The notes beneath the pieces are model-generated. The model worked only from the letters and a program-made list of their open reading frames with translations. It had not been told where the DNA came from and searched no databases. Source: a virus. Taken from it: a stretch of 25,595 nucleotides of DNA. The stretch is from the IMG/VR virus record IMGVR_UViG_3300006805_000140, positions 1-25,595 of that record; one strand, 5' to 3'. The stretch's first letter is position 1, and the number at the start of each line of letters is the position of its first letter. A program made the position numbers and the translations under genes. Of this stretch, positions 1 through 25,595 are shown one piece after another.

Positions 1-1
1 G

Positions 2-118
2 TCAACCGGGCGTTTCGTGAACAGGAAAGAAGCCAAGCATATTGCCGTGGAAGCTGGCCAAATTAGGGATGGTGCAACGCTGTCAAACCCCGAATTATTT
101 TCGGAAGATTTGTGGTGA
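2..118 (+). CDS. C-terminal fragment of a conserved phage protein (5' end outside window)
   Basis: An open frame enters from the left edge and runs 38 codons to a TGA at 116-118. The fragment reads GRFVNRKEAKHIAVEAGQ and ends in the acidic-aromatic tail ELFSEDLW. From memory, a 'GRFV-R-EA---A--AGQ ... L-SEDLW' ending recurs in small proteins of rhizobial phages whose function is not established, so no function is assigned. It points the same way as the next small genes at 493 and 763. About 375 non-coding bases separate it from them, so it is probably the last gene of a plus-strand unit that begins outside the window. The reading frame is convincing because it is compact and has a family-like ending, but the N-terminal domain cannot be seen. 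Confidence 0.7.
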   Translation, partial: STGRFVNRKEAKHIAVEAGQIRDGATLSNPELFSEDLW

Positions 119-152
119 CACCGATTCACATTCCCCCTGATATGTGGTAGGG

Positions 153-237
153 GGAGAGTATGGAATGGCAGCGAGGAAAGCAGACTCGCTCAGAAACAGG
201 CTAGGCACAGCGGGTTCGAGTCCCGTACGCTCCACCA
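153..237 (+). tRNA. tRNA-like sequence with good 3' half; degenerate tRNA or attachment-site core
   Basis: The 3' half is textbook tRNA. It has a T stem GCGGG/CCCGT (210-214 with 222-226, closing pair G-U), a seven-base T loop TTCGAGT, a 3' acceptor strand ACGCTCC (227-233), discriminator A and encoded CCA (235-237). The acceptor pairs with GGAGAGT (153-159) at six of seven positions. The 5' interior does not fold as a normal tRNA. The only strong stem is AGCGAG/CTCGCT (170-175 with 185-190), enclosing a nine-base loop without U33, and only ten bases are left for a D arm. It may be a decayed phage tRNA, a tRNA-like RNA, or an attP core copied from the 3' end of a host tRNA (Asp-like T-arm and acceptor). 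No integrase is in the window to support the last reading. Confidence 0.4.
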
Positions 238-310
238 ACACTTTATGGGGCGAACAGGTGTAGTGAGGCGTGGCCATAAGCCGGGGTAGCGTCCGGCCCA
301 TTCCAAACAC

Positions 311-468
311 ATATCCGGGCAACCGGATATAGGAAGCGGCGGCGTTGAAGGAAACGCTAGCGGCTGGAAACGTATCGTGAGAGTTCTTCAACTGAACTGA
401 CTCGTGAAAGCGGGAAAACCAGACGGGATGCTCACGAAAGCCGGGTATCAAGCCCCGGCCCGCTTCCT
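311..468 (+). ncRNA. Candidate structured RNA or structured 5' leader (strand assumed)
   Basis: This gene-free stretch holds many long, perfectly nested complementary segments. An upstream hairpin ATATCCGG/CCGGATAT (311-318 with 323-330) is capped by a GCAA tetraloop. A nine-pair closing helix joins 331-339 to 460-468. Inside it lie hairpin 341-346/353-358, helix CGTGAG/CTCACG (376-381 with 431-436) enclosing hairpin AGTTC/GAACT (382-386 with 394-398, seven-base loop), and hairpin GCCGGG/CCCGGC (440-445 with 454-459). The last stacks directly on the closing helix. Together they form a four-way junction. The element ends about eleven bases before the AAGGA ribosome site of the gene at 493, so it could be a leader riboregulator of that gene or an independent RNA. 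I recognise no known family. The plus strand is chosen from context only. Confidence 0.45.
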
Positions 469-492: not shown

Positions 493-738
493 ATGAAAGA
501 CTGGCAACCAATTGAGACAGCGCCGAAAGACGGCACGAGGTTTATCGCTTATGATAGCGATACGGACGGCGGGGGCGTTGCGTCTGGACTCGTTATAGCA
601 CGATGGGATGACGTTCGGGAATTTGATGACGAACCGCCTATTTTTGAGTGGTACGTCACTGATTTTGATGGCGGCGATGTATTGGGGGTAAATCTAACCC
701 ACTGGATGCCCCTTCCTCCCCCACCTAACCCCTCATAG
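493..738 (+). CDS. DUF551-like small phage protein
   Basis: This 81-residue protein begins MKDWQPIETAPKDGT and ends in THWMPLPPPP. That pairing is the hallmark of the DUF551 family, which is common in phages and prophages and has no established biochemical role. Between the ends is an acidic stretch (DSDTDGGG) and the family's typical ARW segment. The ATG is preceded by AAGGA at a suitable distance, which supports the start. The structured region 331-468 lies immediately upstream and would be in its 5' leader if transcription starts further left. It is followed 24 bases later by another small plus-strand gene, so the two probably share a transcript. The family call is firm; the function is unknown. 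Confidence 0.85.
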   Translation: MKDWQPIETAPKDGTRFIAYDSDTDGGGVASGLVIARWDDVREFDDEPPIFEWYVTDFDGGDVLGVNLTHWMPLPPPPNPS

Positions 739-23750: not shown

Positions 23751-24649
23751 TATGCTGCTGCCTGAGTGTGTTGGGGTGGGGTTTTAGACGGAACCGTAAT
23801 TTCTGACTGCTCTTCCAAAAACTTCGTTCTCATGCCCCGCGATTTGTAATGGGCAATCCACGCCCTGAACTCAGGCGAACCGCGCTTGACTAAGAAAACC
23901 TCCTGATTGCTCCCCACAGCGGGGGGCACCCTCCCCCCCTCAGAACGGCGCTTGTGATGGTCGGCAATGGCATTTGTGAAATAAGACAACGAGCCTGGCA
24001 TTTTTTGGCCCGTCGCTTTTTTCCGGTCCACAATCGCGCTAACAGCAGGCCAAACATCAAGTTCAGGGTCGTACCCCTGAGACAGCCACACAGAAACGAT
24101 TGACCAGTTCCCCATCCAACGAGGGTCGTTTGTAACCCCCATCCGGTCCGTAATCCGTTGGCCCAACTCGACGCAAGTCGATTGAGGCGGCGCATCCTGC
24201 TTAGCGTCAGCTAAGCTATCTGACTTCTGGCTTCTGACTTCTGACTTCTGACTAGCATCTGTTTCGCATTGCGTTTGGGGTGCGGTCGCATCGGTCTTTT
24301 GTTGTTTTTGCTTGTTATTTTTCCACCACCTTGATTCAGCCGACGATTTTGCTTTTACGCTTTTTACTTCACGCGCTTGCAGTTCATCCGCAACTCTTTG
24401 GTTCCAAATCCCTGTCTCGCTCACTATCAATTTGTTGGCATCAACAAGGTGATCGACGGCTGCTTTGAACTGCCTTTGACTGCACCCACACAAGCGGGAC
24501 AGCATGCCAATATCGTTCGGTATGGGTGCGGCCCGGTCGTACATCGTGGCAATCAGGGTAATGTAGATACCAGTCTCGACGGCGGACAAACCGCGCGTCC
24601 CGGCAAGCCAGTCATTAGGATAAAACTGGAACCAAGGCATGTCGCTCAT
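23750..24649 (-). CDS. DUF1376 (YdaU-like) phage replication protein
   Basis: The 299-residue protein starts MSDMPWFQFYPNDWLAGTRG and continues LSAVETGIYITLIATMYDRA, the DUF1376/YdaU signature with a winged-helix N-terminal domain (about 1-95, including CGCSQRQFKAAVDHLVDANK). A low-complexity linker rich in Lys, Gln, Ser and Asp (about 100-155) follows, with a heptad SEVRSQK repeat made by a 7-bp DNA repeat. The C-terminal part (160-299) contains DPRWMGNWSIVSVWLSQGYD. YdaU-type proteins occupy the phage replication-initiator slot (lambda O-like position). It overlaps the nuclease gene by ATGA and the next gene by TAATG. Confidence 0.75.
   Translation of the reverse strand: MSDMPWFQFYPNDWLAGTRGLSAVETGIYITLIATMYDRAAPIPNDIGMLSRLCGCSQRQFKAAVDHLVDANKLIVSETGIWNQRVADELQAREVKSVKAKSSAESRWWKNNKQKQQKTDATAPQTQCETDASQKSEVRSQKSDSLADAKQDAPPQSTCVELGQRITDRMGVTNDPRWMGNWSIVSVWLSQGYDPELDVWPAVSAIVDRKKATGQKMPGSLSYFTNAIADHHKRRSEGGRVPPAVGSNQEVFLVKRGSPEFRAWIAHYKSRGMRTKFLEEQSEITVPSKTPPQHTQAAA
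24220..24252. repeat. Tandem 7-bp repeat inside the DUF1376 gene
   Basis: About 4.7 copies of CTGACTT, one of them with a single substitution (CTGGCTT), lie in tandem. Because 7 is not a multiple of 3, three units make a 21-bp period, which reads as the heptad SEVRSQK in the encoded linker. Slippage at such a repeat changes the frame unless three units are gained or lost. Confidence 0.8.
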
Positions 24650-25227
24650 GCTGCCCTCCGGTAGTCATTCACAATGGCCGCAATCTCATGCGCCAACTTG
24701 TAGGACAGCCTGTTAATCGTGCGTCCAGAATATCGCAGCGTTTTCACACCAAGCGCCCTTAGGTAGTCATCGCGCTTTGCATCCTTTTCGCGGGCCGCAC
24801 TGTTTGAATGGAAGTCAGCCCCGTCACACTCCAAAGCAAAAGAGTGCTTCCCCCCCTTAGAGTCCGTGACTTGGACTAGAAAATCAAGGCGATAGCGCCC
24901 AATTACAAACTGAGGCGCAATAACAACGGGTGACCTGGGCCATTCATCCCCGCTCATTACGTCATGTAGAGCCGGGGGGAAACAATCGGTTCCGGGGATA
25001 ACCATAAATCCCATTGCCGCCAGCGCCACACGTTCAATAGGGCTTTCGCAAAGATGTAACATCGCGAGCACGCGGGCTTTGGCTTTGTAGAGCAATTCTA
25101 CAGGCCCCTGCATCTCCACAAGTTCATTAAGCGCCGACTGTTCGCCGTCCCGTATTGCGGACGCAACATCAGGCTCCACCTTAACGCCGTAAGCCAGTGT
25201 CGCAACATTGTTCCCAATATGCTTCAT
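24646..25227 (-). CDS. Vsr/DUF559-like nuclease (PD-(D/E)XK fold)
   Basis: The 193-residue protein starts at an ATG right after an in-frame TGA. After a helical N-terminus comes CESPIERVALAAMG (Glu61, Glu65), then VIGRYRLDFLVQV (Asp115), then ALECDGADFHSNS (Glu133, Asp135, His140), KDAKRDDYLRALGVKTLRYS (Lys148-Ser167). This order (E, then LDFLV, then ECDG-xxFH, then K-RD--L---G) is the signature of Vsr/DUF559-type nucleases, which cleave DNA by a metal-dependent mechanism. It overlaps the replication gene by ATGA. Possible roles are host DNA degradation, recombination or a helper of replication. Substrate cannot be told. Confidence 0.75.
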   Translation of the reverse strand: MKHIGNNVATLAYGVKVEPDVASAIRDGEQSALNELVEMQGPVELLYKAKARVLAMLHLCESPIERVALAAMGFMVIPGTDCFPPALHDVMSGDEWPRSPVVIAPQFVIGRYRLDFLVQVTDSKGGKHSFALECDGADFHSNSAAREKDAKRDDYLRALGVKTLRYSGRTINRLSYKLAHEIAAIVNDYRRAA

Positions 25228-25264: not shown

Positions 25265-25595
25265 TCATAACGACACCGTAGCGCATTGATCTGTGTTTTG
25301 GTGAACTGAAACTAGTTTCTCGCTGTTGTCAACATGTGGCGCGAACAAGTTAATCTTGTCGCATATCGCCTGCATTGCTTTGTCAAACATTTCCGGCTTC
25401 TTGGCGTACAATTTGATTGCGTGTTGGATTGTGGAATGGTCCCGGCCCCCCAAATTCCGCCCTATTTGAGGGTATGAAAGCGGCGTGTACTTGCGGGCCA
25501 GAATCATCACGCATTGGCGAAGTCGCACAAGGCGTTTTTCCCGGCGCGGGCTGATAATCTCAGCAACGCTAACCCCTGCCACCTGGGACGCGGCA
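25265..25595 (-). CDS. DnaA domain IV-like DNA-binding protein (5' end outside window)
   Basis: The frame is open through the right edge, so the gene starts outside the window; the GTG at 25582 is not evidently the start. The visible 109 residues contain VAGVSVAEIISPRREKRLVR, LRQCVMILARKYTPLSYPQI and GGRDHSTIQHAIKLYAKKPE. GRDHSTI is the DnaA box-recognition signature of domain IV. No AAA+ part can be seen, and the upstream residues are already domain IV in type, so a stand-alone domain IV protein is likely but not proven. Phage proteins of this kind could bind DnaA boxes at the phage or host origin. I did not spot a perfect TTATCCACA in the window. Confidence 0.75.
   Translation of the reverse strand, partial: AASQVAGVSVAEIISPRREKRLVRLRQCVMILARKYTPLSYPQIGRNLGGRDHSTIQHAIKLYAKKPEMFDKAMQAICDKINLFAPHVDNSEKLVSVHQNTDQCATVSL

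Follow-up and report, generated by a model that had tools for sequence, protein, structure and literature searches.

A phage intergenic region probably holds a folded RNA of two similar tandem units with tRNA-like elements

The locus and its fold

The window analyzed here, a 25,595-nt stretch of DNA from the IMG/VR virus record IMGVR_UViG_3300006805_000140, is a phage fragment; its portal protein and that of Pseudanabaena phage Pan3 are 45% identical. Positions 1-118 (+ strand) encode the C-terminal end of a small, Arn.3-like phage protein that shares 69% identity with a protein of Sinorhizobium phage NV1.1.1. At the other end, two frames lie on the - strand: one (25265-25594) with the helix-turn-helix domain of the bacterial DnaA C-terminus (Bac_DnaA_C) and one for an endonuclease-like protein (REase_MTES_1575/DUF559; 24646-25227). 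The region described below lies upstream of a DUF551-like gene (Table 1).

Table 1. Features of the folded region and the gene downstream of it
Feature	Positions	Strand	Basis or remark
Unit 1 leading hairpin, 9 bp (131-139/148-156)	131-156	+	Fold
Unit 1 junction	161-305	+	Fold, z -2.3 to -3.0
Unit 1 closing helix	161-168/298-305	+	Fold
Unit 1 hairpin	170-175/185-190	+	Fold
Unit 1 arm	199-206/268-275	+	Fold
Unit 1 T arm, loop UUCGAGU	210-226	+	Perfect T arm
Unit 1 acceptor 3' strand CGCUCC; A73; CCA	228-233; 234; 235-237	+	
GGGGCG, acceptor 5' strand in permuted order	247-252	+	Followed by GAACAGGU
Unit 1 last hairpin	280-285/292-297	+	Fold
Unit 2 leading hairpin, GCAA tetraloop	311-330	+	Fold
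Unit 2 junction, twin of unit 1	331-468	+	Fold
Unit 2 T-arm motif AGUUC UUCAACU GAACU	382-398	+	Alternative fold
DUF551-like gene, possible cis target	493-738	+	phrog_924; phiGT1 relative annotated DUF551-like

Structured DNA begins at about position 130, and the candidate RNA is roughly 340 nt long. A sequence-only reading had proposed a four-way-junction RNA at 311-468; the helices of this interval are real, but they make up just half of the object, whose twin (130-306) lies directly upstream. When 119-480 was folded, the + strand gave a z score of -4.43 and the - strand a weaker one of -2.42. The + strand of 300-480 reached -70.3 kcal/mol, compared with -52.6 +/- 4.7 kcal/mol for 200 dinucleotide shuffles (z -3.73, 0/200), an excess that the - strand shared to a much less exceptional degree (z -1.95, 7/200). 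Among smaller pieces, the unit 2 junction (331-468) folded alone gave z -3.61 (0/200 shuffles made in the same way), the hairpin at 311-330 gave z -4.22, and 125-160 gave z -2.43.

The claim that no protein frame explains the region agrees with our data: the only long frame (95-511, - strand, 138 aa) matched neither Pfam nor PHROG, nor, by tblastn, any of 50,697 phage records, and part of it is the unit 1 T arm read in antisense. No described family had been recognised at the locus, and Rfam at the gathering score was likewise empty. At permissive thresholds (119-490, up to E 10), the + strand gave no Rfam signal except a partial match at 210-259 to the permuted tmRNA models RF04321 and RF01851 (20.5 and 17.3 bits). 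The idea of a group I intron, prompted by GCGGGAAAACC, which recalls a P element, was dropped, as Rfam gave it no support over 119-490.

Two similar units in tandem

The minimum-free-energy (MFE) fold of unit 2 contains the elements first described there: the 20-base hairpin (311-318/323-330, GCAA loop), the nine-pair closing helix (331-339/460-468), the small stem (341-346/353-358) and the last stem (440-445/454-459), which abuts the closing helix. The long arm is present too, but with 7 bp (375-381/431-437) in place of the 6 bp previously counted. The stems named for the four-way junction stand, and an additional 3-bp stem (360-362/371-373) makes the junction formally five-way in the MFE. 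In unit 1, the junction also encloses the T arm and an acceptor-type hairpin. Its closing helix and arm have a probability of 0.97-0.99 in folds starting at 145-161, and of 0.25 when 119-480 is folded whole.

The order of parts is common to both units. After the leading hairpin comes the closing helix (UGGAAUGG/CCAUUCCA in unit 1, AGGAAGCGG/CCGCUUCCU in unit 2), followed by one unpaired C and a hairpin (AGCGAG/CUCGCU and GGCGUU/AACGCU, respectively). Both units continue with a linker containing GAAAC, an arm, a T arm, an acceptor-type stem, which is very weak in unit 2 (probability 0.02), and an A-rich linker. The last hairpin is near-identical in the two (GCCGGG/UCCGGC and GCCGGG/CCCGGC) and abuts the closing helix in each. 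Hand alignment of the pairs in the closing helix and the two hairpins showed 14 of 20 to be the same, two with one-sided and four with two-sided changes, and none lost; the helices common to both units thus contain compensatory pair changes.

Covariance models built from each unit alone recovered the other one. For the model of 161-305 (R3), the best other match in the window was 332-467 (22.3 bits, rough E 0.003), the next having an E of 0.8. For the model of 311-468 (R2), the best + strand match was 130-306 (14.4 bits, rough E 0.015), barely above a - strand match over palindromic hairpins (14.3 bits). A combined sequence and structure alignment of the units, with a scoring scheme fixed after the resemblance had been noticed, scored 85.2. 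The best of 2000 shuffles reached 68.2, and the best of 4000 natural segments, which were almost all GC-rich and included the 200 most stable ones, reached 75.0. Duplication is strongly supported only in this combined test; by sequence only, the 3' strands gave weak support (p 0.016) and the 5' strands none that was significant (p 0.12). The shared architecture of the units is far beyond chance.

The candidate RNA occurs once in everything searched. Relatives found through the lysozyme, portal, DUF551 and 941-1357 proteins, scanned with RF04321 and the window DNA, held no homologue. DNA patterns for the acceptor, D region and junction core found none in IMG/VR and GTDB genomes; three genome matches were due to chance and lacked a T arm, and a match in L209 was unrelated. 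Blastn of 300-492 against phages found no homologue, nor did R2 and R3, as single-sequence models, over the collected loci, 40 phage records and 398 genomes, where their weak matches were tRNAs or chance.

That no homologue was found would suit a locus with no function at the RNA level, either a chance fold of GC-rich intergenic DNA or a DNA structure such as an origin or packaging signal. The z score of -4.4 for 119-480 with a weaker opposite strand, the twin architecture and the T arms argue against this, and we consider it very unlikely. Instead, the predicted folds suggest that region 130-470 probably gives rise to a folded, + strand, non-coding RNA of two similar tandem units, and we hold with good confidence that the structured RNA and its twin architecture are genuine.

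tRNA-like elements and known RNAs

The original comparison with an enlarged cloverleaf, in which the closing helix served as the acceptor, was wrong in detail: the tRNA-like parts are a T arm and acceptor-type hairpin at 210-252, upstream of the interval first proposed, and a T-arm motif at 382-398. Searched on both strands, the 25.6 kb window has just two T-arm motifs (5-bp stem, UUCRANY loop), one in each unit, at 210 and at 382. The stretch at 382-398, already marked inside the long arm, does exist, but its identity as a T-arm motif had been missed. Such a motif arises by chance in 0.045% of shuffles of 331-468. The MFE has another fold at this place, and the T arm has a probability of 0.27; because this alternative is just 0.5 kcal/mol above the minimum, formation of the unit 2 T arm is possible. 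Unit 2 has no CCA.

In unit 1, the T arm is followed by an acceptor 3' strand ending in ACCA. This strand, CGCUCC, pairs with the downstream GGGGCG, and the third pair is G.U (G3.U70), as in tmRNA; GAACAGGU after the acceptor 5' strand is also found in the phage tmRNA L133. The order of T arm and CCA upstream of the 5' acceptor, with G3.U70 and A73, occurred once in the window and in 0 of 100 shuffles. When the flanks were shuffled around a fixed T arm, 12% of the shuffles had an acceptor of 6 bp or more, 0.43% had a correctly placed P2-like helix of 7 bp or more, and 0.15% had the full permuted-tmRNA feature set, by criteria set post hoc. The criteria of several of the tests reported here were likewise chosen after the sequence had been seen.

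Permuted tmRNAs (RF04321, RF01849/50/51; L018, L133 and phage Melnitz, whose two-piece tmRNA has been published; PMC9004378) share with the window the T arm, ACCA, G3.U70, A73, the acceptor 5' strand downstream of CCA followed by GAACAGGU, a P2-like helix three nt before the T stem, and the overall size. The window differs from them in its P2 topology and its tandem twin unit. Moreover, its RF04321 score of 20.5 bits misses the gathering score of 47 bits, the conserved D-region GGNUUCGAC (UUCGAC) is absent, the window reading GGUGUAGUGAG, and ARAGORN called no tmRNA and no tag frame. A covariance model built on 28 genuine phage tmRNA domains (R1) scored the window at 35.1 bits, compared with 34-42 bits for tRNA-context false positives and 52-74 bits for genuine tmRNAs outside the training set. 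As it did not separate the window from these false positives, R1 was rejected as proof of tmRNA identity. Because its R1 score equals that of false positives and it lacks both UUCGAC and a tag, the locus is tmRNA-like in anatomy and outside the permuted tmRNA family.

A functional, divergent phage two-piece tmRNA with a short, unrecognised tag would account for the gene order, size, acceptor and spacing. Its tag would be expected to start about 66-120 nt past the acceptor 5' strand (an estimate from ARAGORN coordinates), which corresponds to 313-367. However, the GNRA hairpin and junction occupy the tag's place, and none of the reading frames at the locus ends in the usual Ala-Ala. Together with the ARAGORN result, the sub-cut-off score and the missing UUCGAC, this makes such a tmRNA highly improbable. 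The viral contig L018 carries a beta-type permuted tmRNA (L018:8662-9027) that has a long tag, AKTKTRVNANATQSDEFFALVA, and shares its acceptor with the window.

The 28-nt module at 210-237 matches this phage tmRNA and tRNA-Asp 3' ends equally well (26/28). It could therefore be read as the 3' end of a host tRNA, tRNA-Asp-like, left as a remnant or prophage attachment site, with the neighboring hairpins unrelated to it. A related phage, G014, has a tRNA-Asp 3' part beside an integrase-like frame, and in the window 153-159 pairs at 6 of 7 positions with the acceptor 3' strand. However, that pairing arises in 21% of shuffles, this alternative acceptor stem contains a mismatch, and its outer four pairs can be forced into the full fold only at a cost of 8.5 kcal/mol. 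A73 stands where tRNA-Asp has G73, and no D or anticodon arm was recognised; ARAGORN called no tRNA cloverleaf with an anticodon arm, and the Rfam tRNA model had no match up to E 10 over 119-490. The module had 0 copies with at most one mismatch in 398 sampled Pseudomonadota genomes, and no integrase was recognised in the examined frames of the window, a fragment that starts 119 nt upstream. The twin unit, too, would be left unexplained. We regard a tRNA remnant or attachment site here as improbable.

The T-arm match in G014, considered as a homologue, was set aside as the tRNA-Asp 3' part mentioned above. At L082:1200-1300 (- strand), in a phage related through its portal protein, a tRNA-Asp 3' part that extends from the anticodon arm through CCA lies near an integrase-like frame, with a terminator-like hairpin after it; this is probably an attachment site.

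Possible functions

About 12 nt separate the end of the structure from the AGGA ribosome site of the DUF551-like gene, which is on the same strand, so the junctions might act in cis as a leader controlling translation or transcript stability. However, the + strand here has no terminator-like or promoter-like site, and the ribosome site lies outside the fold. A related DUF551 gene in L002 has no such leader (by eye), R2 has no match in L002 or L221, and the CCA and T arm would be unexplained. A leader role is thus rather unlikely.

The RNA could also be a structural or scaffold "ornate" phage RNA, in which the T arms make tertiary contacts and several units come together as a larger particle, with no tmRNA decoy. 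It resembles GOLLD, ROOL and OLE in being non-coding and highly structured. Like GOLLD and ROOL, which occur in phages near tRNAs and sometimes with tRNAs inside the RNA (PMC12286853), it is phage-borne and has tRNA-like parts, and it is tandem. On the other hand, no Rfam match to GOLLD, ROOL or OLE was found up to E 10 over 119-490, its length of about 340 nt is far short of the more than 800 nt of many GOLLD RNAs, and assembly is without evidence. We judge a scaffold role unlikely, if somewhat less so than that of a leader.

The + strand structure and the tRNA-like elements support the early suggestion of a phage non-coding RNA or tRNA mimic. Most likely, the locus specifies a non-coding RNA mimicking the upper half of a tRNA or tmRNA; because no homologue was found, its function is something that we infer. 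Our tentative proposal, short of an even chance, is a dedicated + strand two-unit phage RNA whose tRNA-like top half serves as a decoy for a host partner. The unit would have arisen once, been duplicated, and then diverged under selection for pairing. Once transcribed, unit 1 would present an alanine-type acceptor stem (G3.U70, A73) in circularly permuted order, and its module might be trimmed like a tRNA or two-piece tmRNA, by RNase P and 3' processing. The trimmed module could then offer a tRNA top half to binding partners such as AlaRS, EF-Tu or SmpB and, lacking a tag frame, would act during infection as a decoy titrating such a partner. This decoy step is the weakest part of the explanation, and, given a single occurrence and no homologue, we place modest confidence in the mechanism.

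The decoy would perhaps be akin to the tag-less tmRNA of phage DS6A, which consists of a tmRNA-like domain (TLD) only; a molecule of this sort is a strong inhibitor of tmRNA and may work by titrating SmpB (PMC4131195). Both are phage-borne tmRNA-like domains without a tag frame (PMC4131195, PMC11915505), and they are alike in the proposed way of working, a likeness taken from their descriptions. Whereas the DS6A RNA is little more than a TLD, the window's domain is part of a large junction with a second unit after it. More speculatively, and with considerable doubt on our part, the locus may belong to a phage RNA class of its own. Its junction unit, duplicated in tandem, could show a T arm in either copy and an ACCA acceptor in the first, and during infection it would have the evolved role of occupying a host machine that binds tRNA or tmRNA (ribosome rescue, EF-Tu or a synthetase).

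If real in vivo, this would be a phage-built RNA made from a duplicated tRNA-like structural unit and a lead on phage interference with the machines that rescue ribosomes or handle tRNAs. Following the DS6A precedent, the decoy idea could be tested with a short construct. The case also illustrates that a tmRNA-like RNA with no tag can escape both ARAGORN and Rfam cut-offs.

Permuted tmRNAs are frequent in phages: over 120 IMG/VR contigs matched the permuted-tmRNA motif pattern, and in most of the contigs that were examined ARAGORN calls a tmRNA with a tag. Five loci on viral contigs (L113:3371-3653, L114:3372-3578, L145:3547-3752, L167:1715-1933 and L183:1385-1552) hold permuted tmRNAs that score above the Rfam cut-off and on which ARAGORN is silent; most of them still look as if they encode tags.
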